DNA from: Sipunculus nudus
Taxonomy: Eukaryota > Annelida > Sipuncula > Golfingiida > Sipunculidae
Direction: 5' to 3'
DNA: 64,000 bases
NCBI GenBank assembly: GCA_026874595.1
Contig: CM049318.1
Span: 54,196,250 to 54,260,249 of the forward strand
Within the stretch, counting starts at the first letter, position 1. The number at the start of each line of letters is the position of its first letter. This document shows, one piece after another, positions 23,953-54,735 of the stretch. The notes beneath the pieces are model-generated. The model was given only the letters and a program-made list of their open reading frames with translations. It had not been told where the DNA came from and searched no databases. The position numbers and the translations under genes are program-made.

Positions 23953-24007
<55 letters not shown>

Positions 24008-24010
<3 letters not shown>

Positions 24011-24183: not shown

Positions 24184-24186
<3 letters not shown>
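24008..24186. mobile_element. 179 bp MITE, Tc1/mariner-pogo type
   Basis: Inverted ends CAGTAAGATTTCGCCTAAC and (inverse) CAGTAAAACCTCGATATTAC are bounded by TA on both sides, inside a TA microsatellite. There is no coding content. Confidence 0.75.
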
Positions 24187-24239
<53 letters not shown>

Positions 24240-24459
24240 CCAAAACTAAAATCAGAGTGGATCATCTGACTGCAGGTGTGACAGGTTCTTTGCGATAGCA
24301 GCCTGGATTTAAACCAATTTAGAGGTTGTTACATTACCACGCTTTATATCTTTTAATCGTTTAACGCTTAAATAATCCAATATTCCAACAGTAAGTAACG
24401 ATGAATGTTTAAACAAGAATAAGACTATCTAAAAATCCCATGAATGAGGTGTTATCCTG

Positions 24460-24836: not shown

Positions 24837-24890
24837 ATGGACCGGTACGGACTGACCCTGCTGGTGGTGATTTTGTGCTACATACCTCAG
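24837..24890 (+). CDS. Exon 1: signal peptide (tentative first exon)
   Basis: The exon has 18 codons, MDRYGLTLLVVILCYIPQ: a charged start and then a hydrophobic core, as in a signal peptide. It ends in phase 0 at a strong donor (CAG|GTTAGT). An in-frame ATG exists upstream at 24762, but the homologous minus-strand copy has a one-base length difference just before the conserved ATG. That breaks the upstream frame and favours this start. Spliced directly to the exon at 41892 it would read into a stop, so at least one exon of length 3n+2 must lie between. Membership in the DSL-EGF-C1q gene is inferred from strand and position only; it could belong to another secreted protein. Confidence 0.6.
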
Positions 24891-25969
24891 GTTAGTTACA
24901 TCATGCAAGGAAATCATACATACAGGAGGATGCGTCAATTTATCTTCGGGTGGGGGGGGGGGGGGGGGGAGGGGGGTTGACTGGTAGCAATCATGGGAAC
25001 TTAATCCAAGACAACTGTTTTCGAAACACGCACACACACACATAAAAATATATATTATATTATATATATACATGTATATGTATATCTTATTATCTGAATA
25101 GCAGGAGGATTATTGCATTGGCCACCCTCCTTGCTAAAAAGTATACCCCCATCCCCCTGTTTTGTTGGTTTTAAGAGTACCCGTTTCCAATTGCTGCATA
25201 CCCGCAATGGCCGTCTGTCAGATATCGGGCCAAAGCCAAATCACTTTCTTACTATGCCCGTACGATAGTCCACGCTTGTGGACGTAACCGCCTCATTTGT
25301 TTAATGCTTCCTTAACTCTAAGTATATGCTCATCTGCAGAATTTCATTCCAGTTTCGGACCATATGACAGGGCAGTGTGACATGCTCCTCTAACCAAGCC
25401 CGGTCACTACTGCACCTGTGGGCGCTAGGTGTGTAATATTCGTACTGCCGAGGAACCCACGAAAGGTGCACTCGTTTGTGAGTGAATGAAACACGGTCGT
25501 TTGGCACGGCCTACTCACTGAGCCTGCAGAACGCTGACCCTGACTAGAGTCCACCGTGAAAAAAATCAAACTGCCTCGGCTGACATTCGAATTCACGATC
25601 TCCCCGCTTACGTGGTTTACCCGTTAACACATAGGCCAGTTTTATGGGTTCCTTTTGCAAAAAGTTATAGAGAAAGATCTATTCTCAGGACACTTTTTCC
25701 TAATTAGTCATAAGATAATTAAGAAACTTGCAATTAAGAAAATAAGTCATGCATTCCACACAGGATTATTGAATTACTGTTTGTGAAATAAATGAAACTT
25801 TTTCGTTAATTCTCAATGTTCCTGGTTTCTTTTAATTTAAATATTCAAAGTGAAACAAACTCTAGTGAGATTCGAGAAAAATAATAAAAAGCTACGATTC
25901 ATTTGTTGAATTTAACAAGATCATACATCCGCAAGTTTATGTATATATGTGTATATATATAAATATATA

Positions 25970-26029
<60 letters not shown>

Positions 26030-32000: not shown

Positions 32001-35000
32001 TTCATCCCAGTCTTTCTGTGTGTCATAGCAATAAGTCCTGATCATGTTTTTTAATGTCTGGTGAAAACACTCGAGGGCGCCCTGACTTTCAGGATGGTAT
32101 GGCGAAAAGCTGTACTGTTTTATACTTAGCTCAAGTATAACTTGTTGGAATAAGCCAGACATAAAATTAGACCCTTGGTCAGACTGGACGGATTTTGGTA
32201 ATCCAAAAGTTGTAAGAAACTCGGTCAGAGCTTTGACAACACTTTTGGTATTAATTTTGCGCAATGGTATTGCCTCAGGGAACTTGGTAGATGTGCACAT
32301 AATTGTCAGCAAGTATTCATGTCCAGATTTTGTTTTGGGCAGTGGTCCAACATAATCAACAATAATCCTACTGAATGGTTCCTCGAAAGCAGGAATAGGC
32401 CTAAGTGGGGCCTAGGAGGATTCTGATTGGGCTTGCCTACCATCTGGCATATATGGCATGATTTACAATATTGTACAACATCTTTCCTGAGGTTAGGCCA
32501 ATAGAAGTGTGTACTAATTTTTGGAAAGTTTTATTTATACCTAAATGGCCAATTTCCTGACTTTCCGGATCAGTGTCCTGATCAAGTGACGGCTTTTCTG
32601 TCACTATTGGTACAGGCTGTACTTTATCACCTTTAAATGAATGCTGTGAAGCGGAACTGAAGTGTGCCTGTCTGAAAACACACCATTAAGGTCTAATCAT
32701 CATCAAATATCATGAAAATTACATTTTTCTGAAAAACATCTGGTTTTATAGATGTTTGCTATATCTATCTTTTCACAAAAACACGTTCCTGGGGTTATAT
32801 TGTATCAATTAGAAAAATAAGTATTTTAATTCAGATGTCAACCCCACGTGGGGTGCAAACAGGAGAGAGTTAGCAGTGTGTAAGTTGTTTATTGGTTAAA
32901 CACGCCCTCGCGGTATTAGGCAAATGGTTGATTGACAGGCGTGGGGAAGCCGCGGTCAGTCAGCCGGGAAAGAGCTTATCTTTATTACCGGCACTTACTA
33001 ATTGGCACTAATTAATACAAACACTTCCTCCCAGTACGCTTAACCCAGAAGTAAACTGTACATCGCACTCGTCCAGTCGCCGAATAATGTCTATGTCACT
33101 GCCCTAAAATATGTTAGTGTCACCCAATAAGGGTCCTGGCACCAAGAATATACCCAGAAATATGAATTTACCGATTGTTATTTCTGTAATATTTACCTTG
33201 TTATACACTATAACATTTTCTCCCAGGGTCCATCATTACATCGCCAAAACCATTACCGAATACATCGTTCCTTCTTCTATAATATACAATATCTTCAAAC
33301 TGAACGTCATGGATCGAAGAAAATAGAGTAGAATGAGCGAAGATTAAATTCGCTATTTGAACGAGAGACAGTCACATACTGCTGATCACAAGGTTCCCGT
33401 GTCGTTAGTGGAGGATGTAGATAAACGCCGAGGGTGGTGCAGCAATATGGGACTGCGTTGCACGAATAAATTTTGTGAGAGGAACGCGGCACCAAGTTAC
33501 ACCACCACGTCGCCTGCTAACAAATTTTGCGAAGTGAACCGCGCCGGAGTCTTAGCTATGAGAGCGATCGGTAAAGGAAGAGCGGTCGCAGCACGATTTA
33601 GCGCGTATATGACCGGTGTTAATAAATCTAATGAGAGAGGGAGATATGTGTTGCTGCTAGCTATGTAGTGTCTCATATATAATTGTGAGAGGGAGAGACA
33701 AGCTGTTAATTGGATTAGGGTATATGGTGGTCTGAATGAGAGCGCAGAGTAAACAGAGTGATCGTTCTTATCAGTCACTTCACACCTGACGCGTGCCCCG
33801 GCGCGGTAGGCCATGACCTGATTACCGATGACCGATCCCTCGGACCAGTAAGCTCCGCCTTCTTTAGTTTGACAGTTCTCCAGTTGTCATGATGCCTAAT
33901 AAAATCCTTTTTTTTAACATTGATAAACCATTAAATTTTATTATTTATATATTGAAACCGATTCTCATCGGAACATTTAGTGAAAAACTACAACTGTCAC
34001 TTGCGCTTATATCCCTGTTTTCCACTCAAAACGAAATTTCTCTTCCCAAACAGTTTTTGGCCGTTTTCTCAAAACAGAATTTCATGAGACTGTATGGTCT
34101 TCAGAGCGATATTTCTCAAAAACGATCGAATATAGAGTATTCAAATTTTGCATATTGATAAATCAACAAGTATTCTAAAATGCGTTTTTTTTTCATATAT
34201 CGTTTTTAGTGTAGTAGAAATACGTTATTTAAACGAAATAAGTATTGTTAACATCACACATTTTTTTTAAATTTAAAATTCATTATAAAAAAAGACAATA
34301 AATATATAACAAAAAATAACGCCTGGAGATATTTCTATGTAGTTTCAAATGATACTATTTCAACATACATACCCTATGCTAATTTTTAGATATATCCAAT
34401 AAAAAAAAATAATTTTAAATCATTTCAAGTTTTAAATTTTCAAAGTGGACACTGTTACACTTTTTTAATATGTTTCATCTGATAGAGAATATTCTAAGGA
34501 TTCTAAATATATATACATCACTGTGTCTAAAATTATTATTAATATGAATTCTAAAGCTAAATTAAACCAAGGTTGTTTGAAGGTGATTAGACCTTAACAA
34601 GTGCATGTGCACCAGTAAAAGACCTATTAGAAAATGGCAAAGTGTTTGCTTACATAAGAGTCTGGCCTGAACCAGTGTCCCTCAAAATTCTAATAGGGGT
34701 AGAATCTGAAAATTCACTTGAAAGTGATACAAAACCATCATGTATGAATGGCTCAAATAAACTCAGTTTCAGAGTCAAGAGAGGAATCTACCACCTCAGC
34801 ATCACCAAATAAAAAACTGACATTGACAGTGTCAGTCAAAAACTCTGTTTCAGTGTCATTCAAGGAATCTTCATCCTTTTTATTACCAAACTCCTCATGG
34901 GAGTCAACAGAGAAATTTTCCTCAGCAGAAACAAACTTCTGTTTGTCATAAGAGGACCTGGCCTCATTTGAAATACTCTCGCAAGAGTCATAAAAGGACA

Positions 35001-38000
35001 GCCTTATCCAGAGAATACTCCTCGCTGGAGTCTTGAAAGGACCTAGCCTTATTAAATTCCTCGCAGGAATCAACTGAGGTTTTTACCCCGCAAGCTACGG
35101 ATTCTTCTTTGGATTAAGAAGGCACGTGGGACTCCGTAGCATCAAACTCTTTACTAGGGTCAATAAAGGAGTTGTACCCCTTATTTACATGAAAAGAGCT
35201 TGGCTCTTGTACTATGCTATGCATAGATTTTGAAACAAAACCAGAAGGTTTGCTATTTGGTTTATTCGCAAGTTTTCAGCAGTCAGATCTTAGGTGAGTT
35301 TCCTTCTTGCAGTAATTACAGATTTTCTTTGAAAATGACTGGTCTTTGTTGGACGTGGACTGAGGTGTAGCAATGGACCTTGCTGAACTATCAGGACTAC
35401 TAGTACTGGATGGCTGCGCTTTAAACTTCTTCTTACCATACTGATTTACATTCTTGTTTGTGAATGACTTGTTTGATTTGCTAGTAAAGGACATTTTGTG
35501 TGTTAATGAATAATCATCAGCTAATTGAGAAGCAATGTAAAGTGTATCAGGACTTTTCTCATCAAGAAAAGTTTAACATCTGCTTTAATGCAGCGCTTAA
35601 ATTCTTCAAGCAAAATCAACTGGCGCAAATTGTCATAATCTTTCATTACATTTTTAGAACTACACCAGCGATCGAAGAACTGCTCATTTGTCCTAACAAA
35701 TTCGACGTAGGTCTGTTCTTTGCGCTTTTCCCAATTTCTGAATTTCTAGTGGTAAAACTCCGGAACTAATTCATAACCTTTTAGGACTAACCGTTTTACC
35801 AGGTTATTAGCAGCTTCTACTGAAAGCTCTGTATAAATTTCTCTGGCCTTGCCAGTCATTACACCCTGTAACAGCATAGTCCAATTTTCCTTAGGCCATT
35901 TTCAATTTTCAACTACCTTCTCAAAGTGTAAGAAATATTTATCAACCGCTTTTTCTTGAAAAGGTGGGACAAGTCTAATGTGTTTAGATACATCAAAACT
36001 GTGAGTTAGGGCAGCACGTAGACTATGTTATAGTTTAAGTCTTTCTAACTCGAGTCGTGTTAACTCAATTTCTTTTTTCTTTTTTTTTTGCATTCCTAAC
36101 TTCTTTAATTCCAATTGCATAGCAAGGCTACCATTTTTTGATGTTTCAACTTAAATTTCCTTCTTTCAAACAACAACTGTTCTTTTGACAACTGTTCAAG
36201 ATGATCAGGGTCAGGATCGTCAACAAATGTCTCGGGTTTAAAATCTGCCAAGTTAAGATGTTAAAACAGTAACAAAAAAACACTGAGATAAATCCTGTAA
36301 ACAATGTACTGTAAAGAATATGTAATCTTGTAAACAATTTATGATAAAACAATGTCCAGTTCAAGGCCTAATAAATTTTCAAAACTATTTAGCCATCCCG
36401 GGAGAGCCCCTAATTTTATGTTACGGAACCTAATATAAACAGATCACGTATGCGTGATGAACACAAATTTTGTAATGAAGATAAAAAAAAACAGATTCTG
36501 TAACCCTAGGCAGCGTGAAACGTCTATGGAAACGAATAAAGAAGTCAGTGGTTTTTTGTTAACAAATAACTATAATTTATTCTTAAAACAACCTTTACAT
36601 TACAATACACTATATCAATACAATTATACAGTAAAACAGCGATATAACAACAAATCAATACAATCACACAGAAAGATAAAAAATGTGCACAGCACCTGGA
36701 TACCACCACCGCCACAACGATAAGTTCTTTAAATGTATACTCTCGGAGAATGACAGTCCAGTGTAAAGCTCCTGTAACAAACCAGAAAGTACAGTCCAAA
36801 TGCATAAAATCCAGGAGAAAGTCTTAAAAAATCTATAATGGCCGCACACGTCGGATAAGGTCCCAGAAACTGACACACGCTTCTGTGTCCGCTTGAATCA
36901 TCTCTGCTCTCTGCCCCGGCTCTAAAACACAGCCCCATTATATACTCTTCACCCCAAGCCGAGAATTTTCCACTTCTCGAACAGTCTAAGAATAATACAT
37001 TATACACAGTAAGCACGCGTCACAGGAATCCTCTAGAAAAACATTGCTGCGTGTATCTCTTCAAACCAGGGTCATCACGTGACCTCGGCCAGGCGTGAAA
37101 ATCCCCAGCCAGCATGACAACGTGAGTTCAACCAGTCTGGATTAAACATAAAGTGCAACAAGCGGCCCGGCGAGAGTGTCACCATACGAGTTACGCCCGT
37201 GTCACACAGTAAAAGGAGTAATATATATATGAAATGTGTCATACAGATGCTAATATAATTGAAATATGTCATACAGACGCTTAAAATGTATATATATTTA
37301 TATATGAGTGTGTGATGGTGGTTGTGTGTCTGCGAGTTATTCCCCTCCCCTGAAGGATAAATTGACGCCACTAAACACGGATATATCTTATCTTCCTCAT
37401 AAACATAAATTACTAGTCGATTTTACAACTGCTTGTATTATAACAGCCATGCACCAGGAGGGGACACCGGGCACCCCTCTAGGATTTTAGGACATAGGTA
37501 TTTTCATCTCCGTATGTATGTCCAATTTATGAATTAAATGTAAACAATAAATATTTTTTGAGACACTACCATTTTAAGCCATTTAAATGACAATCGTCTC
37601 ACAGCGCAGGTAAAATTGATAAAGAGGTAGGGGTATGTAAATGCATATATCTTGCTTAATATTATATTAATTAACTTTAAATAATCTATTGTATTTTCAT
37701 AGTGCAGGGAAACCACGATAAAATACATAATTATTTTAAGCAATTATTTTCGATATTAGTCAAATATCCTGAAAGAGTACAGATTGACACTTCTCTTTAC
37801 GAATCTTTTCCCATTTTATGTATTTCTCGGGTCAGCTGAGATTTTTTTAACTTTCATTTTATTTTTACAGCATTTCCCGACACTCCTAGAAATAAGCTGG
37901 ATAAAAACCATTATTTATTCAACCATCCACCTGTATAATGTGACTGGTATTGAGTCTGGTAAGGCGTTTAATGTAGCCCTGTTGTTCTTGGTGCCGTTGG

Positions 38001-39620: not shown

Positions 39621-42265
39621 TAGAGCGCCGTTTTTCCGAAAGCGTCGGGGGACAAGCTTTTTGTTCGTAAAAACGAACATTCCGAAATGCGGACAAGTGT
39701 CTAGCGGCTAGTTAGTACGAAGTTAATGATTAAGTTATTGTCATTTTACCCGAGGAACACGGTGTTTCTTTCGATATTCGTAATTGACGACCTGGACTTT
39801 GGATTATGCCCAATATTGGATTATTGCTGAGCATAATTGGCAAAGATCAGTCTAACCTGCTTTAAGGAAATGAGCGTGCTCTTTTTTTCATCAAATTCAC
39901 TGGAGGGAAAGGTCAAATGACATCGCCAAGGAACACGGTGTTTCAAATCGATCTACGTAACTGAAGACCGGTACATATAAAAGCTGCTCAAGCACAAACG
40001 TTTAATAAATTATAGCTCACCAATGCTCATGCGAGTAAACTGCTCAGTTATTTGGCATGACATCCTGTCACCAGCCGACGAACTACGCCTGCTTGAGTAC
40101 AAACGAGATGTGGTTGATAACACACAAGTGCTCTGGGATACACTGCTCAGTCGCTTGCTAGGGGTACAGGGGGCCGAGCGTTGCGCGTCCCATCCTCCAT
40201 TCTGCATTGTGTCGTGCATTAGAAGTGTCTTAAACTTTTGACCAAGAACCCACAAACAAGCTTGCTCAGGTCACATGTAAGATGTTGTTAAATTATGTCT
40301 CATTAACTTATGTCTCATATTGTGTTATCTTATTAAAATTTGGAAGAATAATCGATAAATTTCAGTTGTCACCTACTGATGGAATAGACTTCAGTAATAA
40401 ACAAAATACCTACTGTATTAATATTATGCTAATCTGAATTAATCACATTTTGTAGGTATGTCGTTGTTCTGGCCGACTTCAAGTCAAAATGATTACATAC
40501 ACCCTCAAAAAGCCGGGTGAACTTTAAGACGGCCGATGCTGCAAGGATGACGCTTTGCCAAGTTGTGCGCAGGACAGCTGCTCTTATAAGTTCCAGGTCT
40601 GTCTAAAGATTACGAGAAGGTAGGAAGCATATATCATACTTCCACTAAAGGATGTAATTCACCTGTGTCTGTTGTACGCTTGTTCGTATGCAGATCAATT
40701 AAAATGAAAATAAATATGACGCGTATCCGGAAAAGGGGATTTCCAATAGGTTGTTTTACCTTGATGACCATATATGCTTTGTTGAGTTTTCTTCTAGTTT
40801 ACGTAATTTTTTTTTTATGAACAAGAGGACTTATGTATATCATACAGTACTTAATTGAAAGAGAATATTGAAACGCACACTCTGGTAAAAGTAAATTCGA
40901 TTATGTTTAAAACTTCTTATACCCATCTACGGTTTTAGCTGATATTCATCTTAGTGTCGTTTTTTCCATGTAAATTTTAGCTATTAGTAAAGACCCATGC
41001 GGTCATTAGATATATTTGTTTCCATATTTAGTATATATATATAAATCTTATGGATATACAACTGGACTGTCAAATAAGTCACGTATCCTCATGTTGTACT
41101 CTTGCTGTTATGTCATTATTATTTGCTTTATCTCATGTTTTAATTTGTAGCAAGACCTCGTTGAAAACATCACTTGCTAAATGAGCTATTCTGTTGAAAT
41201 ATTTTGAAATAAATAAATAAAGCAGATTTAGAAGACGCAGGTTAGGTGATGCAGTTTAGGTGACGCAGTTAATATGACGTAGGTAAGGTGACGCAGTTTA
41301 GATGACGTAGGTTGGGAGACGCAGTTTAGATGACGTAGGTTGGGTGACGCAGTTTAGATGACGTAGGTTGGGTGACGCAGTTTAGATGACTTAGTTTAGG
41401 TGACGCAGTTAAGATGACGTAGGTTAAGCGACGCAGAATCAGGTTCGTGATTCATACATTACTACCAGGTCGTCGGGATGATTAAAAAAACATATTTAAT
41501 CAAACAGGATTAAATTATAGTTTGATCCGAACACCGATTATCCGAAAAATCGTTTATGCGTAATTGAAAAATGAAAATCTAATTTTTGATCAATGAAAAT
41601 TAAATATTCAACCCTATATTGAATTCAGATTTTCCATGGCCAATAAGCAATAATTAAAATGTATTTTACATGATAGCTGTTGCCAACGTTTATATTGGAA
41701 TTGCTTCATTTATTCATGTCTGTCAATCCCTGTTCTTCTCCGGTGCTCGGCTGCAGGTTTCTGAATCGTGTGGAATCGTTTATTCGAACGATCGTTCATG
41801 AGAACTAAAACCCTGTCCTCCGGATAAACGAAACTCTACTGTATGTATCATTCCATAACGTTATTTCGTGTGTGTGTTTTATTTTTTATAGAGGAACTAA
41901 TTGTTCAACCTCTGGTGTGGCTGGTTATTCCCCAAACATCATCTTTGGGCCTCTTATCGGGAAAAGTGATAACCCAGTCTCAGTGACGTTTGCAACATGG
42001 AGCGTAAGTCTGCATTTTCCCAAGGATATGACACGTTCATAATTTTCCACTGGGAGACGAGTTCATTTTCATTCCAAATACGACGGATATCTGGATCTAA
42101 AATGTTAAACTCTTCAAGATTTAAGGGAATATTTGGCCGAAAGACACCCATTAAGGACATACTTGACATCGTGCCAAATAGTTCAAGACCTCAAACGGGC
42201 ATTTCTGAGGCATGGCCACATGGATGTTCCGTGACAACAACAATTACACTTTGAATATAAGGTCG

Positions 42266-42314
<49 letters not shown>

Positions 42315-44975
42315 AAAAAGAAAGAAAGACTATGTCCTTTTTTGAAGTGAGTACTTTAAACTTGATTAGGAGTAATCCGTGACTGTTCAAATAATGTTTT
42401 ATTTAAATCAATTCATTCGATTTTTGTAAACACTCGCATATTCTGAAAGGGACCTAATGCTTTCCTACACGATAATGTTATATGGACATTGTAATGCACT
42501 GCTTTAATGCAGGATATTAAAAAAAAAGTTTAATACCTCTTGTATTCTGTTTATCTGTAAATAAGTAGCAGAAATAAGATGTGAAAAGAATGCAAATGAA
42601 TTAATTATAATTTATCGTTTTTTAGTTCAGCTGACTGAAAGTTATCTGAGATTAAGTAATCGCTTTTTGTGAGTCGTCTTTCCGTCCATCCATCTGTCCG
42701 TTAACAAGGCACCAATAGTAACCAGAAACTGCTAAATGATAACCCCGGGAGTTCAATAATAAATCTCCTTAGATGCCTAAATTTAAGTCACTGCTAAATA
42801 TATTTCCTCTGAGTTCTGGGGCATGTTTCTACTCCCAAAAAAGATATAAAATTTGTTACAAAAGCTCTAGTTTTTGAACAAGTAATGTTTTGATTGCCAT
42901 GATTCATTCTATGGATATGTATATTGAACATGCAAGGGTGAACAGTTTCTTCAGTTCGCTGTAACCTATTTTAAGGCTTATAAATGAACAAAAAGCATGA
43001 ATTTCAGTTAGCAGATTGAAAGTCATTTTATCCATCGTTCAAGGTTCCTTAAAAAAAATTTTTAATAAGATATTTTAATTACTAGAAATCTGCATACCCA
43101 TGGATACATGCAACCGCCATGTTAGCATAAGTTTCAAAAAACGTTTGAAGGTGTTTGTTGGTCACCGTCACTCCGAGGTATTGGCCCGCTCGACCGTGAA
43201 CCTAATAGGTACCCGGCCGCACTGATCAGACGGGAACTTATGTATCATTCTCTTAATTTTTGGGTCATATTCTTAGGTTCATTCGTGCATAAGTGACCGT
43301 ACATTTTATGAATATTCCTTTATGAGGCTCCAGAATCCAATTGTTACAATTGTAATAATAGGTAATTGTAATAATTGTTACAATTGTAATAATAGGTACC
43401 CGGCCGCACTGATCAGATGAATATTCCTTTATGAGGCTCCAGAATCCAATTGTTACAATTGTAATAATAGGTAATTGTAATAATTGTTACTATTGTAATA
43501 ATAGGTACCCGGCCGCACTGATCAGACGGGAACTTATGTATCATTCTCTTAATTTTTGGGTCATATTCTTAGGTTCATTCGTGCTTAAGTGACCGTACAT
43601 TTTATGAATATTCCTTTATGAGGCTCCAGAATCCAATTGTTACAATTGTAATAATAGGTAATTGTAATAATTGTTACAATTGTAATAATAGGTACCCGGC
43701 CGCACTGATCAGATGAATATTCCTTTATGAGGCTCCAGAATCCAATTGTTACAATTGTAATAATAGGTAATTGTAATAATTGTTACAATTGTAATAATAG
43801 GTACCCGGCCGCACTGATCAGACGGGAACTTATGTATCATTCTCTTAATTTTTGGGTCATATTCTTAGGTTCATTCGTGCAAAAGTGACCGTACATTTTA
43901 TGAATATTCCTTTATGAGGCTCCAGAATCCAAAGAAGCAGTTGCAGCAACAACAAAATCTAATTGGATCAATTATTCGATGCATTGTTACCGCTCTGATG
44001 ATTAGTTCACAAGATCGCGGTATCACTGTCAAAATTTCCTGATGATATAATCAAGTATTATTACTCTCTTTACAGAGGAGGAATAGCTTTTGGGTGGCCG
44101 TTCTTAACGGAACTAATATGATCGATGACAGTCCTTCACTGAAAGTCAGAAGGAGCAACCCGAGTAAAGAATGGCTGCCTATCAGTCTGTCTTCACTACG
44201 GTCCAGGTAACCATGGTGATAACATACAAGAGACGTGTGCAAAGAAACATTAAATAAAAACTTTAACACTAAAGCTATTTTAAAGATATCTACTTAGGAA
44301 ATACCGGACGGAATGATTCATATAGAGGAAGGGATTTTAATATGAGGGCTGCATAGATGCACGGGCATATATAGTAAGAGGAAATGCATTAAAAATAAAA
44401 TTAAGCCGTTTGACAAGTCGTTTCGCGATCGTTTGTTTTAGATACAAAAATAGTCTTCCATTGTCTGGACGTCTTTCACGCTAATAATCACATTTCAAAC
44501 AATCATAAAAAATAATGTATTGCCCTATATTGTCTCTTAGAAAACAGACTGATATTTTTCCAACAACCGCAACAAATCCAGACTTTTTCATTTTCTAAAT
44601 ATGAATATTACAACAGTCATTGAGGAAGCGCCTGTTGCCTCTATCATAATCTCGCATTATTAAACTATTTTTATAAATGAGATATTTTTTATATACTTCC
44701 AAAAACGGATCCAGGGGGGGCAGGGGGTACTGATCCCCTTTTCAGGCGACGCAAACTGTTTTTAAGGATTTCAGACCCATTTTTGCATTCTGGACGCCCT
44801 TTCCATGATTTGGGGAACTTTCTTTAGGTGTTATCATTGATCCCTGGATCCGCCCCTGGGTTTGGGCAGGTTCAACCTCAAATGTCTTATATCTGTATCC
44901 CATGAAACGCACGGTAATAGCATTTTTCCCGATATTTTGGAAACAGAACATGTGCAGCTCTAATTCTTGCTGGGT

Positions 44976-45044
<69 letters not shown>

Positions 45045-48000
45045 CATTTCGATTACCTTGCAGCGTGAAACTTGAATACAGAGTTGAGTGCAACCGGGAC
45101 TTTTACGGGCCGTACTGTGACAGACACTGCATCGTGAATGAACTCACAGAACATAACTTTGAATGCAACCCCAATAGTGGACACAAACAATGCAAGCAAG
45201 GTAAGCAGAAAGATTACACCAATAGTAACATATACAGAACAACTTGAAAAATTATGGTACTATACTATACATAATTCATTTTTACTGCATGTCACTATAT
45301 TATGAATTCTTGTTTACAACACAAGTGATGGAGGACTCGAGCCCGGACATGGATTCTAATCAGGACTCGAGTCCACATTTTTTTAACTCGGACTTGGATT
45401 CAAATTCGAAAGTAAAGACTTGAGAAATAAGGCCGAGTCTATATCGAGTTCAGAAGAAGGAAAGCTCTGTCACATAAATATAAACTTATTTATTTTACAT
45501 GGATTGTACAAATAGTTATTATAACTAATCGAGGCACTCTCCATGGCTCCGGTGATGGCGTTCGGTAGTCTGCAGAGGTGGAGAAAACCGGAGTACCCGG
45601 GGAAAACCACCGGCCTTGGACGGGCAACTACAACCCACTCTCATAGCCACGCCGAGGATCGAACCCGGGTCGCCAGCGGAGATAGCCAAGCGTTTTAACA
45701 CTCAGCTGTCCAGGCCCCTAAATTTATATATATACATATTATAAAGCTATTATTATAAAGCAAATTACTAACAAAATATTTTACAAAAGACTATTTTCTA
45801 AGCTTTAGGGCGCTAAAATTTAATTAAACATCTGAGTAGAAAGCATGTGAAACTAACATTAAAATAGTTATGGTAATCTAAAATTTCCATTTTGAAATTC
45901 TTTTCATAAGGTAGTCTTGATTCGACTCGGACTTGGATTCGGGTTCATAATGATGCCGATTTGAACAAGGTGGACATTTACTCGAACCTCAAGGACTCCG
46001 ACTTAGACTCGGACTTGCGTAGTGTAGTCTCGGACATGCACTTGGACTCGAATAGTGTATACTCGACTACATCACTGCACAGAACGCAACCTTCTGGGAA
46101 AACTAGCTGCCTCCTTGAGGTCTGAAGGGAAGTATTTAAGCAAATTTTTCAGATAGCTCTGTTCCATGCGTCTTCCCGGTCACTCTATCCTGTGGCAGTC
46201 TGCAACGTCTGTTTATATGGGGCCAAATGGGTCAAATGACCATTGGAAAACGACTACCAAGCTTTCACTACTCACTTCTGAAGGCTCTAGGGTGTTTGTA
46301 TCAGTCCAAGTGCAACCAACGCGGATTTAAAAAAAAATGACTCCTCCCATATGGTTTCTTTCTGTTTGTCTACTGGGAAGGGTTGATGCCGTCCTGGCTG
46401 CGTGTTTATGGTTGCAAGAGCTGTATATATGACAATATTACGTCACTAAGACGTGACAAATGTCGGGGGCGTATGACGTCACATTTACTGAAGTCAACAG
46501 GTGCAATTGCTACACCTGCTCTCCAGTTACGAAATTGTGAAATTTTCCCTTATCTTTTGAAGGATAGGGTAAACAAGTTCCATGATAAAAGTTATACTGA
46601 TGAGAATATGATGATTTTGTATTTAGGATGGGCTGGCATTGACTGTAATTTCAACATCCAGGAATGTGTGTCTGATCCATGTGTGAACGGCGGAAGGTGT
46701 GAGGACCTCATCAACGAGTACAGGTGCATTTGTCCGGCCGGCTACACAGGTATGTCAGTTAGTACAGCGAATCGACTATGTAAGACATTTTATAGTTTAA
46801 AACCAGGATCGCGAGTGTATGCCTGATGAAAACATAATGAAAATATGGTAAATTATGGAGAAGTAGTTACTCTATCATTAGCGCATGGGTAAGTGAATCA
46901 GACCAGGAAGACCAAAGGGTATATCAAATTACAGAAACTATAGGGCAGAGTAAATCGTGATCGTAAAGATATTGTTCTTCTTATGTACGACGATGTACGA
47001 ATTAAAGACCATGAGGGTAAGGTTAATCCGGAGGATGAGGGTATGAACAAGTACTGCTATTGAATTATAAAAGAATAACTCCAGGGTGATCATCAAACAA
47101 CCAGGCGGATTTGTGAAGAAGGCAGGAGTTATATCATTCGTTCACACAAGCAAAGCATGTAAAATCAAGTAACCTCTACCCACATTTTTACTTTGTTCAA
47201 ATAACCTCCGTCATATGTTATATATATGTCGGTGTGAAAGAATTTAACTATTTTTTTTTCTTTTCAGGTATACACTGTGAAACGCTCAAAGATCTTTGCC
47301 GAGAAAGCCCTTGTCAAAACGGCGGCACCTGTAGACAGATAGAAAACACATATACGTGCACCTGCCTCGACGGTTACAATGGGACAAACTGTGAAAACGA
47401 TATGAATGAATGTTTGAGCCAACCTTGCCGACATGGTACTTGCACTGACTTGGTAAACGGTTTCAGTTGTACCTGCGCATCCGGTTACACGGGTATGACA
47501 TGTGACACAGAGATTAACTTCTGTTCTTCTGACCCCTGCAGCCATGGAGCCACGTGCCTGACGTTAGTTGGAGGCTACCAGTGTCAATGTCCTCCAGGTT
47601 TCAACGGTAGCCATTGTGAAGATGAAATAAACTGGTGCGCTAGCAGTCCTTGTACTGGGGACGCCACATGTATATCAAACGTGACTAGTTATGCATGTTT
47701 GTGTCCTGATGGAAGAACTGGAGTCACCTGTGAGCAATATTTGCCGTTGTGTAGCGTAAATCCATGTCAGAATGGTGGAAACTGCTTCCAGACAGAGGAC
47801 AAAGTTATCTGCTCTTGTGTTCATGGTTTTACGGGTCCAAAGTGCGAAATTGATGTAGATGATTGTGAAAACGGGCCATGCGTAAACGGTACATGTGAAG
47901 ACCTGGTCGGTAATTACAAATGTCACTGCGGTGAAGGGTTCACTGGGAGAAACTGTGAGAGTCGAATTTTGTCCTGCCCTGAGGTCAAATGTAATTGTCC

Positions 48001-49790
48001 CGTTGGATTCAATGGTACCCGTTGTGAGAATAAGGTAAACAGAATACTTCTTTTGAGTATAAACGCAACGAACAACAACCGCATGATTTCTTGCGGAATC
48101 CACAACTGTGATACAATCACAGTTGTAGGAATGACGTGTACAATTAGGCCTTGTTATGGTGAAACGGTAAAAGGCACCAAGAACCATAAAAGTGCTAAAT
48201 ATACACATCAAAATACATCTGTTCGTGTCTTTGGTAGTGAATGAGTCTTTCTGGCAACATTTCAACGTTCCTACATTAATATATTAATGAAACATTATCT
48301 CCTACAGAACCTTGTAAGCCCGCCGTGATTTAAACGTAAACCTGTTGAACTTGTGGGCGGATGTTGAACGACTGGTACTCTGCACACACCCCTATTAACG
48401 CCCGCTTTTTCCAGTTCCAACAGCAATCATATCAGAGCGGGGTCCAAGTCTAAATTCCATTGCAAAGGACATTGGGGCACTTCAAATTCCATGGCCGCTT
48501 CTTCTCTATGTAAACATTAGGGTTCTTGGTAGATTTAAGGATATGTAGGGCATTTAAGCATCACATTGATGCTTCGACCTTTCAGAAGTTTCATAAAACA
48601 TCCAAAGACAGCGCAAAGGTAATTATTTTATGTTTACACGAAAAAGTCACTTATAAAATTCCAAAGGGGTCTCCTATTAGGAACCTAACAAGGCGTTATC
48701 ATAACTGTCACTCCCAAGACGTAGTTGAAGTGCAGCAGATATAATCGTAATAAAGCGTCTTGGGACGAGACAACCGCATGATGTACATTGATATACTGAC
48801 ACCTTTCAGGGACACGGCACGTGGAGTGACGTAATTGTCCTCTGTGACGTAACGACTCTCACGATTTAAACTTATTTAAATTTTTTTAATGATTTACATT
48901 TTGAGGCCGAACATCCCCCGCCATCTTCGTTAGTGTTTGCATTTTGGAAGGGGGGGGGGGGGGGGGGGGGGCAGCGAAACAATATAACATTTTCGTTAAA
49001 TATGAAGTGAACAGTTGGTTTTCTGGAATTTACTCAATGAAATAAATTTTCTTTTTCAACAGGATGTACAGACACGATGTCAGGATTTGGGAAAGCGGCC
49101 TGTACCAGGTAGGCCTATAGCATCTCGTCCTCTGTTCCCAGAATGAACGTAATCGGACATATGTTTGTCTTAATAATGAAAACAAGTTGTTATATCACTT
49201 TCAATTATGAAACAAAGGACCCTTTTGGAATAGAGTTATATGTTGTATTTGTAACATAGATATATTTTTAGAAGTCCTGAACATATCAATAAAGCGAATT
49301 AGCGAAAAATAAAAGTAAATAAGTAAACGATGATGAAGAACATTAAGAACGTTTATCCCACCAGGTTATTATTAACTGCATCTTATTAACGCACATTATC
49401 TGTTTTTCAGTAGTGGCCTTTCATGTCTCATACGAAGGAAAGCCCATCCAGTACGGAAATCTTCCTATACGAGTACCGTACAATACAGTGAAGCTCAACC
49501 AAGGAAATGGGTATAAGCAATCCATCCATGTATTTATCGCTCCGAGGGCTGGATTCTATATGTTCCAGGTGACTGGACTGAGCGGCAAACAGAGGGGGTG
49601 CCTACGCATGAAGAAAAATGCGGCCTTGGAAGGAATCCGCTATGGTCACGGAACATGGGAAACCATGGCCATGACTTTATTCATGATGCTGAATAAAGGG
49701 GACTCTGTTAAAGTTTTAACATGTCAGAATGTCCCTGGGAGTCTGTGTCCCTACTCCTTTAACACATTCAGTGGGTTCCTGATTCACTAA
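24837..49790 (+). CDS. Gene model: secreted DSL-EGF-C1q protein (Notch-ligand-like, C1q-capped)
   Basis: The joined model uses exons 24837-24890 (tentative), [one exon not found], 41892-42003, 44076-44206, 45064-45200, 46627-46749, 47268-48034, 49063-49108 and 49411-49790. The seven downstream exons have GT/AG borders and matching phases (0, 2, 1, 1, 0, 1), giving one open frame to the TAA at 49788. Domain order is signal peptide, MNNL (C-terminal half seen), DSL, seven full EGF repeats plus a half repeat, a 16-residue linker, then C1q. The visible coding length is about 580 codons. DSL proteins bind Notch receptors through MNNL and DSL; C1q domains usually form trimers and bind ligands. No transmembrane segment follows the EGF repeats, so the product should be secreted rather than membrane-anchored like Delta or Jagged. 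The link from exon 1 to the rest is inferred from strand and position. The fusion is seen directly; any Notch-binding or trimeric function is inference. Confidence 0.85.
24891..27024. other. First part of intron 1
   Basis: It holds G-runs at 24951 and 26922, a TA microsatellite at about 25950-26025, the SINE-like repeat 25088-25272, and inverted-duplication blocks at 25694-25800 and 26429-26605. A G-run/C-run pair at 26697-26752 looks like a tiny hAT-type remnant. A minus-strand frame at 25390-25596 may cover a degenerate tRNA-derived repeat (TTCGAATGTC). No MNNL-coding exon was recognised. Confidence 0.45.
25088..25272 (-). repeat. Interspersed repeat, copy 2 (SINE-like)
   Basis: Partner of 8506-8700. 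It lies in intron 1, in the right arm of the duplication, but at a place not colinear with copy 1, so the two are independent insertions. Confidence 0.5.
27025..29430. mobile_element. 2.4 kb TIR DNA element with subterminal repeats
   Basis: The inverted ends are GGGGCATTTCACGGTATTT, at both borders, with TATATAT flanks. Copies of the word GTCACGGACGGGACA, or close forms, lie in one orientation near the left part (27200, 27515, 27530, 27705) and inverted near the right (29000, 29025, 29220, 29395). Subterminal arrays of this kind are typical transposase-binding sites. The interior frames (for example 28133-28342) show no transposase. Superfamily unassigned. Confidence 0.7.
29439..30249 (-). 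repeat. 3' LTR of the retrotransposon
   Basis: On the + strand it begins TGTTACGGAACC and ends CACCTGTAACA, a good TG...CA with inverted TGTTAC/GTAACA. It abuts the TIR element ending at 29430. Confidence 0.85.
30250..30262 (-). other. Polypurine tract
   Basis: On the minus strand AGAGGAGGGAGAG lies directly against the 3' LTR, as expected for plus-strand priming. Confidence 0.65.
30300..30419 (-). pseudogene. RNase H stub
   Basis: AVDASDTVAGAVLLQEG matches the first strand of a retroelement RNase H. It stops at PICYF, and the polypurine tract follows within about 90 bases, so most of the domain is deleted. Confidence 0.6.
30420..31300 (-). pseudogene. Reverse transcriptase remnant, downstream of integrase
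   Basis: It follows the integrase in the same direction. It starts HPYRLNPEKQKYLQDK and DNDLIEPSNS, continues KIDDCIDRVG and FDLLKGFWQVPL, then the YIDD catalytic motif near 30838-30849 and FLGMVGYNRKFC. At least two in-frame stops are present (before NSPVTIQR and after KSEF). Confidence 0.85.
31560..32560 (-). pseudogene. Integrase remnant
   Basis: From high to low coordinate it reads a zinc-binding end (THFYWPNLRKDVVQYCKSCH), then the catalytic core with Asp in IIVDYVGP, Asp in QSDQGSNF and Glu in PESQGALECFHQ. A C-terminal part follows with PGRPLQARYFGPF and CHVNMLKPYY. A frameshift lies near 32410. The DDE residues are kept but the frame is broken. Confidence 0.85.
32690..34593. mobile_element. 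1.9 kb TTAA-flanked DNA transposon inside the LTR element
   Basis: The ends GGTCTAATCATC and (inverse) GGTCTAATCACC are flanked by TTAA at 32686-32689 and 34594-34597. Removing the element and one TTAA restores the reading of the host retroelement. TTAA target use is typical of piggyBac and Kolobok. The interior frame at 33357-33668 contains NRAGVLAMRAIGKGRAVAA, resembling the N-terminal region of metazoan Mutator-like/Kolobok-type transposases, but no complete enzyme is present. Confidence 0.75.
33357..33668 (+). pseudogene. Transposase-like N-terminal fragment
   Basis: The frame has paired cysteines (LRCTNKFC and ANKFCEVN) and then VLAMRAIGKGRA. This resembles the N-terminal portion of a family of DDE transposase-like proteins common in molluscs and cnidarians. 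It breaks off after 103 codons. The assignment is from memory of the motif and is weak. Confidence 0.35.
34598..35275 (-). pseudogene. Gag-pol linker/protease-region remnant
   Basis: The acidic frame at 34753-35073 (rich in Ser, Glu, Asp) lies between the zinc knuckle and the site of the TTAA insertion. The reading frame across the insertion site (TGAHALVNGVF) continues into sequence ahead of the integrase once one TTAA is removed. A protease active-site triad was not seen. Confidence 0.45.
35276..36150 (-). pseudogene. Gag remnant with CCHC zinc knuckle
   Basis: The last part (35276-35494) ends with CNYCKKETHLRSDC, a CX2CX4HX4C knuckle. Upstream, broken frames read phrases such as RQLILLEEFKRCI and IASQLADDYSLTH, typical of gag proteins of this group. 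Stops and frame changes make it non-functional. Confidence 0.7.
36395..36412 (-). other. Primer-binding site, tRNA-Pro-like
   Basis: On the minus strand TAGGGGCTCTCCCGGGAT lies six bases inside the 5' LTR. It matches the common tRNA-Pro primer site at 15 of 18 positions. Confidence 0.6.
36419..37218 (-). repeat. 5' LTR of the retrotransposon
   Basis: It matches 29439-30249 along its length with scattered differences and small indels. Its outer end lacks the last ~12 bases and runs into TAATATATAT, so a target duplication cannot be confirmed. Confidence 0.8.
37219..38523. other. Intron 1 DNA between LTR elements
   Basis: It holds the 37700-37945 repeat related to 820-1030 and a TA microsatellite at about 38448-38502. 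The 98-codon frame at 37784-38080 lies in the repeat and has no domain. Confidence 0.4.
38524..39221 (+). mobile_element. Solo LTR of a related family
   Basis: It starts TGTTACAGGCGTCTG and ends GTTCCGTAAT, the ends of the 29439-30249 LTR read in the other direction. The last ~200 bases match that LTR well; the middle is diverged. There is no internal coding region. Confidence 0.65.
39618..41841. mobile_element. 2.2 kb pogo-like DNA element
   Basis: The ends CAGTAGAGCGCCGTTTTTCCG and (inverse) CAGTAGAGTTTCGTTTATCCG, bounded by TA, are the pogo/Tigger-type terminal repeat. It sits in a TA microsatellite. Inside are two short opposed frames at 40010-40255 with no clear transposase, more CCGATTATCCGA-type words, and a minisatellite. 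Confidence 0.7.
41230..41436. repeat. Minisatellite of ~13.5/27 bp units
   Basis: Alternating GGTGACGCAGTTTA and GATGACGTAGGTT words repeat about fifteen times inside the pogo-like element. Confidence 0.8.
41892..42003 (+). CDS. Exon: middle of MNNL (Notch-ligand N-terminal) domain
   Basis: The acceptor is TTTTTTATAG and the donor GTAAGT. The first base completes a codon begun in the missing upstream exon; 37 codons follow. It contains NIIFGPLIG and NPVSVTFATWS, which resemble the PVLG ... NP.xFPFxFxW stretch of Delta/Jagged MNNL domains. The assignment rests on this resemblance, on phase 0 splicing into the next exon, and on its place ahead of the DSL exon. Confidence 0.7.
42004..44075. other. 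Intron within the MNNL region
   Basis: It has a GA microsatellite at 42268-42310, a reversed fragment of the pearl-like 3' end at 42625-42720, and the higher-order repeat at 43205-43930. The opposed frames at 41954-42254 overlap the MNNL exon and are shadows. Confidence 0.6.
43205..43930 (+). repeat. Higher-order tandem repeat, 296 bp period
   Basis: GGTACCCGGCCGCACTGATCAG starts at 43208, 43395, 43504, 43691 and 43800, so spacings alternate 187 and 109. The long unit has GGGTCATATTCTTAGGTTC; both share TGAATATTCCTTTATGAGGC and a self-complementary AATTGTTACAATTGTAATAA block. Confidence 0.9.
44076..44206 (+). CDS. Exon: end of MNNL domain and MNNL-DSL junction
   Basis: The acceptor is CTTTACAG and the donor GTAACC. 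It starts in phase 0, has 43 codons and leaves two bases (AG) that complete a serine with the next exon. It encodes RRNSFWVAVLNGT and later SNPSKEWLPISLSS. These match the place of the FSLIIEA strand and the EW motif just before the DSL domain in Notch ligands. The frame is open throughout. Confidence 0.75.
44703..44866. mobile_element. hAT-type MITE
   Basis: GGATCCAGGGGGGG at the left and TCCCTGGATCCGCCCCTG at the right are inverted ends of the CAGGGGCGGATCCAGGG type. The body is 160 bases with no coding. It is related to 17845-18045. Confidence 0.7.
44975..45043. repeat. TA microsatellite just before the DSL exon
   Basis: TA repeats end about 20 bases ahead of the DSL exon acceptor. The minus-strand frames of Ile/Tyr here are artefacts. 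Confidence 0.9.
45064..45200 (+). CDS. Exon: DSL domain
   Basis: The acceptor is ACCTTGCAG and the donor GTAAGC. It begins VKLEYRVECNRDFYGPYC and holds five of the six DSL cysteines; the sixth (GWAGIDC) is in the next exon. Spacing between successive cysteines is 8, 3, 11, 8 and 8 residues, as in the DSL signature of Delta, Serrate and Jagged. YRV.C, FYG..C and GW.G..C are all present. The phenylalanine/arginine-rich loop of classic ligands (FCRPRDD) is replaced by HCIVNEL, so receptor affinity or specificity may differ. Confidence 0.92.
45322..46077. mobile_element. Inverted-end element rich in ACTCGGACTTGG words
   Basis: The left end AAGTGATGGAGGACTCGAG and the inverse right end CAGTGATGTAGTCGAGT are related. 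Inside, the words GACTCGGACTTGGATTCG repeat, as in some hAT-like MITEs. The SINE at 45480-45718 inserted later. Confidence 0.55.
45480..45718 (-). mobile_element. tRNA-derived SINE, copy 3
   Basis: On the minus strand it reads from the tRNA-like head at 45718 to the A-rich tail near 45482. It has the same box B and core as the other copies. It sits inside a larger hAT-like repeat (45322-46077) in the intron after the DSL exon. Confidence 0.85.
46627..46749 (+). CDS. Exon: end of DSL domain and EGF repeat 1
   Basis: The acceptor is TATTTAG and the donor GTATGT, phase 1 in and phase 1 out. It encodes GWAGIDC, which closes the DSL domain, and then the EGF repeat with ECVSDPCVNGGRC and YRCICPAGYTG. 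The final cysteine of this repeat is at the start of the next exon (IHC). Confidence 0.9.
47268..48034 (+). CDS. Exon: EGF repeats 2-7 and a degenerate eighth
   Basis: The acceptor is CTTTTCAG and the donor AATAAG|GTAAAC; length 767 bases, phase 1 in and phase 0 out. After the last cysteine of EGF 1 come six full EGF repeats with the C-C-C-CxC-C pattern. A truncated repeat follows that keeps only SCPEVKC, CNCPVGF and GTRC. Repeats preceded by DMNEC, DEINWC and DVDDC have calcium-binding-type leaders. N-glycosylation sequons occur (NGT, NGS, NVT). Packing six repeats in one exon is unlike the one-repeat-per-exon layout common in vertebrate Notch ligands. Confidence 0.93.
48370..48771 (+). repeat. 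~400 bp interspersed repeat, copy B (intact)
   Basis: It lies in the intron between the EGF exon and the linker exon. It matches 19550-20982 minus the hAT-like insertion and so records the empty site. Confidence 0.75.
49063..49108 (+). CDS. Exon: 46-base linker exon between EGF and C1q
   Basis: The acceptor is TTCAACAG and the donor CCAG|GTAGGC. It encodes DVQTRCQDLGKRPVP plus one base that makes Val with the next exon. Phases match on both sides; skipping it would shift the frame into the C1q exon. The single cysteine could form an inter-chain disulfide, and KR could be a basic cleavage site; both are speculation. It is small but is the only in-frame bridge seen. Confidence 0.75.
49411..49790 (+). 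CDS. Last exon: C1q domain and stop
   Basis: The acceptor is CTGTTTTTCAG. The exon encodes 125 residues and ends at TAA (49788-49790). VVAFHVS opens the domain, as in many C1q-domain proteins. YNTVKLNQGNGY, then FIAPRAGFYMFQVTGL, match the core C1q pattern (N.G..Y ... F..P..G.Y.F). The end FNTFSGFLIH is the typical last beta strand. The length is right for one complete globular C1q head. No collagen-like Gly-X-Y stretch precedes it; the EGF rod takes that place. C1q-domain genes are strongly expanded in bivalves, often with immune lectin-like roles; here the partner is a DSL module. Confidence 0.92.
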
Positions 49791-51995: not shown

Positions 51996-52202
51996 AATGA
52001 CGTCACGTCATGTTGATGTCCGATGAAAGCGGCTGTAATGACAAAAACAGATTAAGCGTTGTTACCATATTTTGACATGTAATAAACAAAATCTTAAAAA
52101 AGAAGAGCTGAATAAATTTCATTTGATTCGAATAACCTGAACGTCAACTTTATCTTAAAAAGAATTTCAGTGAAATGTGGTCACACTATATTTAAAAGAT
52201 AA

Positions 52203-52905
52203 AGCACTGAATAGAGGTCCTCTAATCTGCACTTTGACCCATTGCAGATGAACAGAGGTCCCCTTATCTGCACTTTGACCCATTGCAGATGAATAGAGGT
52301 CCCCCAGTCTGCACTTTGACCCATTGCAGATGAAGAGAGGTCCACTACTCTGCACTTTGACCCATTGCAGATGAATAGGGGTCGCCTAATCTGCACTTTC
52401 ACCCCTTGCAGATGAAAAGAGATCCCCTTATCTGCTCTTTAACCAATTAAAGATGAATAGAGGTCCCTGAATCTGCACATTTACCCATTGCAGATGAATA
52501 GTCCCCTAATCTGCACTTTTACCTATTGAAGATGAACGGGGTCCCCTAATCTGCACTTTTACCCATTGCAGATGAATAGAGGGCCCCCAGTCTGCACTTT
52601 GACCCATTGCAGATGAATAGAGGTCCCCTACTCTGCACTTTGACCCATTAAAGATGAATAGAGGTCCCTTAATCTGCACATTTACCCATTGCAGATGAAT
52701 AGAGGTCCCCTTATCTGCACTTTTACCCATTGCAGATAGATAAAGGTCCCCTAATTTGCAGTTTTTTTCCATTGCAGATAGATAGAGGTCCCCTAATCTG
52801 CACTTTTACCCTTTGTAGATGAATAGAGGTCCCCTAATCTGCACTTTTACCTATTGAAGATGAATAGAGGTCCCCTAATTTGCAGTTTTACCCATTGCAG
52901 ATGTT
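52203..52905 (+). repeat. 42 bp satellite array, block 1
   Basis: About sixteen units of CTAATCTGCACTTTGACCC plus ATTGCAGATGAATAGAGGTC with point changes. The Ser/Leu/Gln-rich frames on the minus strand (52167-52772) are translations of it. Confidence 0.95.
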
Positions 52906-54735
52906 ACTGTCACATTGCGACAAAGGGACTTCAACATCGCAGTCAGTTCATATGATGATAACACTAGAAATTTAGTATCCCCAGACATTAATGTATACCC
53001 CATCAAATATTGGCCCCGATTAACAGAAGCATATATTAACACTTGACAAGCCACCACCGTTTCTTCAGGTGAGACCTTCAAAACCAAGGTCAAGGTTATG
53101 AGGTTTACAAAAATCCTATATATCGACAGATTTGACCTTGATTGTGGAGGTCAAGGTCACAGGTTTTCAAACTCTATCAACAACTTTTCATCTGATGTCT
53201 TTCATTTTGATTTTCAAATTGATACAGCTTTCCAGTTGAGAAAAAATAGTTTTCACCAGATATGGAAACATTCAAGGCGAAGGCCACTCTCATGACCCCA
53301 ATTTATAAATTCCTCATCCCATAACCCATATCTATGCATATGCATAATACGAAAGAAATTTGTCCATTGGTTTTTTACTTATTATACTCACAGTAATGTC
53401 AAATGGCATGATGGGGGAATTAAACGGCGTGAAAACAAGGAAAAGACATAAGATGGCATCACCTGTCTCCCGCATAAGAAAAAGCTATCCAAGATGTTCG
53501 AAATATTTGATTTTTGGACCATTCCATGCATCCCTTATTGAGATATTTAAGATTTTGTGTGATTTTCTAGAAATATTGGTCCGAAAAAGGTTAGGACTCA
53601 AGTTTAAATATACCTCATTTCATAACCAATACCTATGTTTATGCATAATATGAAAGAAATCCCCTAATCTGCACTTTTACCTATTGAAGATGAACAGAGG
53701 TCCCCTAAACTGCACTTTTACCTATTGCAGATGAACAGAGGTCCCCTAAACTGCACTTTGACCCTTTGCAGATGAATAGAAGTCCCTTTATATGCACTTT
53801 GACCCATTAAAGATGAATAGAGGTCCCCTAATCTGCACTTTTACCCATTGCAGATGAATAGAGGTCCCCTAATCTGCACTTTTACCCATTGCAGATGTTA
53901 CTGTCACATCGCGACAAAGGGACTTCAACATCGCAGTCAGTTCATATGATGATAACACTAGAAATTTAGTATCCCCAGACAGTTATTGTATACCCCATCA
54001 AATATTGGCCCCGATTAACAGAAGCATATGTTGACACTTGACAAGCCGCCACGGTTTCTTCAGGTGTGACCTTCAAAACCAGGGTCAAGGTTATGAGGTT
54101 TACAAAAATCCTATATATCGACAGATTTGACCTTGATGGTGGAGGTCAAGGTCACAGGTTTTCAAACTCTATCAACAACTTTTCATCTGATACCCCCTTT
54201 TGATTTTCAAATTGATACAGCTTTCCAGTTGAGAAAAAATAGTTTTCACCAAATATGGAAACATTCAAGGCGAAGGCCACTCTCATGACCCCAATTTATA
54301 AATTCCTCATCCCATAACCAATATCTATGCATATGCATAATACGAAAGAAATTTGTCCATTGGTTTTTTTACTTATGATGCTCACAGTAATGTCAAATGG
54401 CATGATAGGGGAATTAAACGGCGTGAAAACAAGGAAAGGACATAGGATGGCAACACCTGTCTCAAGAATAAGAAACAGCTATCTAAGATGTTTGGTATAT
54501 TTGATTTTTGGACCATTCCATGCATCCCTTATTCAGATATTTAAGGTTTTGTGTGATTTTCACAAAAAAATTGAAATATTCAGGGTCAAGGCTACTCTCA
54601 TAGTAAAGGTAATGACTCCAGTTTTAATATATCTCATTTCATAACCAATATCTAGGTTTTTGCATAATATGAAAGAAATCTGTCCATTAGTTTTTGAGTT
54701 TGTTACTTATAATGCTCACAGTACTGTCAAATGGG
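52901..54735 (+). repeat. ~994 bp tandem duplication downstream of the satellite
   Basis: GATGTTACTGTCACAT begins copies at about 52900 and 53894. Each copy has GACATTTAGTATCC-like and AGGTCAAGGTCACAGG phrases, then a ~330 bp subunit with GTCAAATGGCATGAT and ATTTTTGGACCATTCCATGC. A further subunit begins at about 54661 and is cut at 54736 by a LINE; its remainder is at 57228-57420. Confidence 0.85.
53660..53898 (+). repeat. 42 bp satellite array, block 2
   Basis: Five to six units of the same monomer as 52203-52905. It separates the two ~750 bp copies. Confidence 0.95.

Follow-up and report, generated by a model that had tools for sequence, protein, structure and literature searches.

The Exon Chain and Its Domains

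The window analysed here, a stretch of 64,000 nt from the Sipunculus nudus genome (C13:54196250-54260249), carries on its plus strand a chain of nine exons in which coding sequence for MNNL, DSL, EGF and C1q domains follows in that order. Exon 1 (24837-24890), found by a scan and matched by a twin on the minus strand, holds the ATG and a signal peptide, MDRYGLTLLVVILCYIPQ, and ends in phase 0 at the donor CAG/gttagt. Exon 2 (40456-40619), recognised with the MNNL profile, encodes the first half of MNNL, contains an in-frame TAA (40525-40527, codon 42) and ends in phase 2, which fits exon 3. MNNL continues in exon 3 (41892-42003) and ends in exon 4 (44076-44206). Most of DSL lies in exon 5 (45064-45200), the end of DSL and most of EGF repeat 1 in exon 6 (46627-46749), and the end of that repeat, repeats 2-7 and the remnant of an eighth in exon 7 (47268-48034). 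A 46-nt linker exon of a C1q gene (exon 8, 49063-49108) and an exon with the C1q domain and the stop (exon 9, 49411-49790) complete the chain, which measures 1,914 nt and has stops at codons 42 and 638; the first AATAAA 3′ of the C1q stop is at position 50154.

An earlier note on this DNA had described the last seven of these exons as a single frame, and that reading holds: all six introns are GT-AG, the phases are compatible, and 1,696 nt (564 residues) stay open until the TAA whose last base is 49790. The domain search that the note had proposed places both diagnostic domains above their Pfam cut-offs, DSL (PF01414) with 28.4 bits in the whole chain and 31.5 in the MNNL-DSL part (cut-off 24.2) and C1q (PF00386) with 30.6 bits in the whole chain and 35.0 alone (cut-off 23.7). 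Pfam finds seven EGF stretches in the seven-exon product, and the array consists of seven complete repeats and one damaged remnant, so the order MNNL-DSL-EGF-C1q proposed for the DNA stands. The proposed gene start at 41892 does not; the chain begins at 24837, and two upstream exons, one of them with the in-frame stop, had been overlooked.

Scored with consensus weights, the splice sites of the chain exceed at least 84.6% (acceptors) and at least 95.9% (donors) of the AG and GT sites of the window. At its own splice scores, 49063-49108 is the sole in-frame short exon of the needed phase on either strand of the 64 kb. When both scores are relaxed to at least 6, there are 13 such exons on the plus strand and 2 on the minus strand, and windows of the same size contain one in 17.5% and 2% of cases, respectively; 49063-49108 is still the sole candidate between 48034 and 49411.

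An Intact Paralogue and an Inverted Duplication

We searched the 1.43-Gb assembly (153 contigs) with the DSL-EGF part. Besides the window gene, one close relative of the DSL exon was found, on the minus strand of C13 just left of the window; we call it PL. Its exon 1 still lies inside the window (6351-6298, minus strand) and is the twin of exon 1 mentioned above, with 17 of 18 residues identical and the donor gttagt in both; the other PL exons lie left of the window. The splice borders of PL exons 2-6 fall at the same places as in the window gene, and exon 7 has the same acceptor. Over exons 2-7, DNA identity between the two is 90, 94, 98, 94, 97 and 94%, exon 7 being compared over its first 720 nt. 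The flanks match piecewise as inverted repeats (1718-11380 against 21353-26610, 73-79% identity), and the window gene and PL therefore form a head-to-head inverted duplication. A self-matching stretch (23654-24007) also occurs within the inverted-repeat region of the window.

PL thus shares with the window gene the signal peptide, MNNL, DSL, the exon borders and the first EGF repeats, and departs from it in what follows. Its exon 7 (C13:54170644-54176004, minus strand) is a single open stretch of 1,787 codons of EGF repeats with an S/T-rich end, so that the open frame of PL, counted from the ATG through the giant EGF stretch, comprises 2,008 codons. The 70 kb read near PL yielded no C1q (best E 2.5). 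A first search for a transmembrane exon in PL returned none, and three hydrophobic candidates that emerged later were not convincing. Within exon 7, multi-repeat units recur whose DNA is about 75% identical to exon 7 of the window gene. An intron of PL harbors two long open frames of 895 and 553 codons (C13:54177852-54182137), retroelement-like by eye.

The C1q Half and Its Chromosome-8 Kin

A genome search with the C1q exon gave at least 94 matches, the nearest among those listed being on chromosome 8 (C8), where four relatives show 82, 80, 66 and 77% amino-acid identity (82% for C8:24406198; 77% over part of the domain). The best of them (L034/L048) matches the window from 48992 through exon 8, the following intron and the 3′ flank, while the other three match only from just upstream of the C1q exon. 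The best relative has a 46-nt exon with the length and splice borders of exon 8, sharing 25 of its 46 bases, and a signal-peptide exon able to end in phase 0; a related signal-peptide exon is present in the other three, one of which served as query. Nothing in the window matches the signal-peptide exon of the C8 kin (best E 3.2), which indicates that the truncation of the C1q copy lies in the intron preceding exon 8. Judged by these alignments, the C1q exons of the window are a 5′-truncated copy of a chromosome-8 C1q gene, without its signal-peptide exon.

We also considered, and rejected, a separate C1q gene starting independently between 48035 and 49410, since no ATG frame was convincing among the six that could lead to exon 8 and the twelve that could lead to exon 9. 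The frame at 48083 has a donor score of 4.1-4.2 and weak hydrophobicity (1.64), and the frame at 49143 is hydrophobic (2.48) without a donor.

The secreted C1q genes of C8 (C8:24406198 and kin) share the C1q exon with the window gene and, in the case of C8:24406198, also the exon 8 borders, the intron and the 3′ flank. Unlike it, they have a signal-peptide exon of their own and, over the 8-9 kb read upstream, no same-strand EGF or DSL pattern; the same was found at all five 10-kb loci of C8 and C9 kin scanned. Outside C13, no other DSL gene lies within 1.4 Mb of a C1q exon among the matches listed; both match lists (at least 13 for DSL) are lower bounds, and the DSL family search left out the window gene and PL. 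In a protein database, none of 33 candidates and none of 1 matched the C1q part, and 1 of 147 matched the MNNL-DSL part (a sponge Delta-like protein); no mollusc was among the proteins returned, so absence there says little. The predicted fold of the C1q exon alone has a pLDDT of 42 and was set aside.

The Junction

The two halves meet between 48034 and 49063. Window and PL match to about 48044 and then diverge within EGF-coding sequence, which sets a first breakpoint at 48035-48044. The eighth EGF repeat of the window copy has lost 45 nt relative to PL, in frame. A second breakpoint lies at about 48991, where an intron piece common to the chromosome-8 C1q gene begins (48991-49062). The segment between them (48045-48990) belongs to neither parent among the sequences compared and would be intron if spliced. 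It contains dispersed-repeat sequence (about 48357-48773 resembles window 19537-20974), and against the parent sequences compared it gave only two repeat matches near PL, of 65 and 82 nt. A poly-G run is located near 48951-48972. Chimeric genes arising from duplication are a known kind, and here, as expected of that kind, both parents can be identified together with the breakpoints.

The donor at 48034 and the lost first exon of the C1q gene are both in phase 0, and a splice joining 48034 to 49063 would therefore yield one frame. The earlier note had proposed this donor, and a splice consensus is indeed present, but it had overlooked that the site is EGF-coding in the intact paralogue: AAG/GTAAAC also occurs in PL, with a donor score of 6.69 in both copies, and is read there as amino acids between two EGF repeats. 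We infer a putative splice from 48034 to 49063 through a cryptic donor that encodes EGF sequence in the parent.

Alternatively, the locus could be two adjacent fragments that are never joined in RNA, the DSL-EGF copy reading through 48034 and the C1q exons being orphans. The coding status and equal score of the donor in PL speak for this possibility, as does the EGF frame, which stays open past 48034 to a stop at 48242-48244 (a 69-residue tail) and is followed by an AATAAA at 48749. On the other hand, exon 8 retains strong splice sites and the C1q copy lacks a start exon, both of which sit badly with orphan exons. With the evolutionary evidence given below, we consider separate fragments an unlikely, if serious, reading.

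A Nonsense Codon in Exon 2

A regular-expression scan for the MNNL cysteine pattern gave, among chance matches, position 40579, which is inside exon 2, and this exon ends in the phase required by the exon at 41892. With exon 2 included and its stop written as X, the MNNL profile (PF07657) scores 28.5 bits over the whole model (cut-off 22.5); there is no match without exon 2, and with only its post-stop part the score is 12.3 bits. The best solved relative of the joined region is Jagged-1, and in the alignment to it the TAA immediately precedes a conserved CC. PL is open at this position. The TAA differs from the PL codon at two adjacent bases, and a lone base-calling error is for that reason somewhat less likely.

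In the assembled sequence, translation that begins in exon 1 stops after 41 residues. The first Met past codon 42 is residue 125, with no signal peptide ahead of it, and the signal-peptide exon at 24837 is separated by the TAA from the frame of the C1q domain. An acceptor at 40529 that would remove the TAA was rejected (score −2.4, 32nd percentile). Most likely, no full-length protein is made from the window gene in the sequenced individual, and the expectation of the earlier note that the assembled genome yields one is not supported, given the stop at codon 42. Probably the break arose recently, is allelic or reflects an assembly error; the TAA itself could be such an error.

This leaves room for a working chimeric gene, in which the TAA would stem from faulty sequencing or assembly, would belong to a rare allele, or would be bypassed by skipping exons 2 and 3, and a secreted DSL-EGF-C1q protein would be made. 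The skip keeps the frame and would join signal peptide, DSL, EGF and C1q in 545 residues; the remaining exons are open and the junction phases are compatible. Set against these points are the presence of the TAA in the assembly, two bases from the PL codon, the 45 nt gone from an EGF repeat and the divergence of exon 8. We regard a working gene as possible and rather doubtful. Its anatomy is the same as that of the broken chimera that we prefer, and the two likelihoods are not shares of a single whole.

Constraint on the Two Halves

Between the window gene and PL, dS is 0.144 and dN 0.040 over 461 codons (ratio 0.28). In the EGF part (134 codons), changes were polarised with the internal repeats of PL as outgroup. 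The window branch carries 10 nonsynonymous and 8 synonymous changes and the PL branch 9 and 8; a further 7 are unassigned. Nonsynonymous changes are fewer than neutral on both branches (p 0.019 and 0.013, respectively). For the C1q exon, the window branch has 19 nonsynonymous and 14 synonymous changes against 4 and 2 on the C8 side, with 3 unassigned (p 0.008). The dN/dS of this exon to its two nearest kin is 0.35 and 0.41, like the 0.40 between those kin; against a further locus, L036, values are higher for all three, at 0.59 with the window exon and 0.86 and 0.79 with its two kin.

Insertions and deletions point the same way. Across 1,434 exon nt, window and PL are separated by the 45-nt loss alone, whereas 24.4 events would be predicted from the intron rate; a Poisson reckoning allows the window branch to have lacked constraint over no more than about 39% of its length. 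No gap interrupts the 378 nt of the C1q exon, while the aligned intron and 3′ flank, about 1 kb, contain 24 gap openings. Stops are a weak test in comparison: in simulations, a fully neutral branch accumulates a mean of 3.5, and one or none in 14% of runs. The joining exon behaves otherwise. Exon 8 is 54% identical to its C8 counterpart when aligned without gaps, whereas the neighbouring intron is 69% identical, and a gapped alignment needs three gaps that cancel in length. With 25 of 46 bases shared, less than the adjacent intron, and these three gaps, exon 8 itself shows no constraint.

By these substitution and gap counts, both halves, the sequence of exon 8 excepted, evolved under constraint with the frame kept for most of their history. 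Given this and the single indel, the stop codon is probably young. A C1q exon without stop or indel, with a dN/dS to its kin like that between them, is not what unjoined fragments lead one to expect, although the divergence of exon 8 fits them. Constraint on both halves up to recent times likewise favors a working gene. The constraint may, however, predate the joining and have acted on separate genes, conversion between the two inverted copies could have reduced the divergence of their exons, and the outgroup of the EGF test comes from PL itself.

Notch-Ligand Features

The earlier note had suggested a soluble Notch agonist or antagonist. The resemblance to Notch ligands is real as far as domains go, since both MNNL and DSL are recognised by profile, the former with an X at the stop where the assembled frame is interrupted. 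The chain also has, as that note supposed, no transmembrane segment after the signal peptide (highest 19-residue hydropathy mean 1.03). Secretion need not disqualify a ligand: the available text of PMC3415683 calls C. elegans DSL-1 a secreted ligand, and that of PMC8166818 describes molluscan Delta2 as having no membrane segment.

The residues of the Notch face are another matter. At the positions of Jagged-1 F199, R201, R203, D205 and F207, a list given together with the DOS feature in the available part of PMC3415683, the window gene has H, I, N, L and E, so that none of five is kept. The same is true of PL (0/5), in contrast to Dll1 (5/5) and to locus L001 of the same genome (4/5). Three further DSL loci of this genome keep 2, 1 and 1 of the five, and the low counts in PL and these loci make loss look common in an expanded DSL family. 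The short-loop EGF1-2 of DOS type is absent after DSL, the first repeat having ordinary 4-5-8-1-8 spacing. That the gene encodes a genuine soluble Notch ligand or antagonist, putative in its binding and trimerised by its head, is therefore very improbable.

In the C1q family, the head serves as a trimerising module. If codon 42 is open in other animals, the product would be a secreted protein of 637 residues with the C1q head trimerising. Given such an open allele, we would sooner expect a secreted protein of lectin-like or matrix-like type than a Notch ligand. Because no Notch-face residue is kept and short-loop EGF repeats are lacking, adhesion or recognition rather than Notch signalling would be the expected role, as far as sequence comparison can tell.

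Origin of the Locus and Known Systems

The explanation that we favor, and consider fairly probable, is a chimeric gene that arose by duplication and truncation and now bears a nonsense codon, the cryptic-donor splicing and the recency of the stop being the inferred parts of it. The earlier note had also proposed a DSL module recruited into C1q-type immunity; what the breakpoints delimit is more exactly a truncated DSL/EGF duplicate upstream of a truncated C1q duplicate, where it occupies the place of the C1q signal-peptide exon, and any recruitment would be putative. PL, a gene with signal peptide, MNNL, DSL and long EGF array, has a head-to-head inverted duplicate in the window, and this duplicate is truncated inside its EGF exon. 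A C1q gene copy without the signal-peptide exon of its kin follows downstream of the cut. The phase-0 donor at 48034, EGF-coding in the parent, would be spliced to 49063, giving one frame whose complete product would be secreted, trimerised by the C1q head and armed with DSL/EGF. A recent TAA would have left the assembled allele null or newly pseudogenised. The locus is thus a broken or variable new gene, not a proven new protein. A bolder version, which we think quite unlikely, would have a young working chimera segregating with a null allele, its DSL/EGF arms, freed from Notch binding, recruited to C1q-type recognition by way of the EGF-coding donor.

To our knowledge, multimerin-1 has neither MNNL nor DSL. 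It combines an EGF-like domain and gC1q in one protein, as the window gene does on the DNA, and differs in having an EMI domain and a coiled coil (available text of PMC8881648). Molluscan Delta2, from a DSL family that is expanded in bivalves, resembles the window gene in joining MNNL, DSL and EGF without a membrane segment, but it is shortened by early termination rather than fusion, and C1q is never mentioned in the accessible portion of the source (PMC8166818). Bivalve C1q-domain proteins are described in the available parts of PMC6835236 and PMC10672478 as mostly secreted, with a C-terminal C1q, and expanded by duplication, tandem duplication according to the former. The types named there either lack a stalk or carry a coiled coil, a collagen tail or more than one C1q domain, with an "other/uncertain" class not spelled out (excerpted text of PMC6835236), and the accessible text of the review contains neither "EGF" nor "DSL" (PMC10672478). 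Literature searching at the level of titles and abstract openings returned no report of DSL and C1q in one protein, and to that extent the claim that the order DSL-EGF-C1q is undescribed has survived.

The locus offers a near-complete record of the accidental birth of a multidomain gene, with the parents (or their close kin), the breakpoints, the phase match and the cryptic donor in one genome. The damage that ended the gene, or that silences one allele, is a single codon. If it is transcribed with codon 42 open in some animals, its product would, within the reach of the literature search, be the first DSL-C1q protein, and a direct test case for C1q expansion recruiting new stalks through gene truncation.

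Surroundings of the Locus

The long first intron of the chimeric gene contains a Ty3/gypsy-type LTR retrotransposon on the minus strand (about 29430-37220), with an integrase core (31782-32411), an integrase C-terminal domain (31154-31912), an RNase H-like domain just below cut-off (30401-30724) and end sequences that look similar by eye. Tandem repeats occupy 41220-41450 (14-bp units, also found in a PL intron), 43203-43932 (296-bp units) and 52131-53979 (41-bp units). Scans of the window for tRNAs and Rfam families gave no matches. Another DSL exon (C13:54270756) lies 25 kb to the right of the C1q exon and is about 36% identical over 39 residues. Among the at least 13 DSL matches of the genome, four are close together on C4, two pairs are on C5 and one pair on C17; together with the neighboring exon on C13, these clusters fit a DSL expansion.
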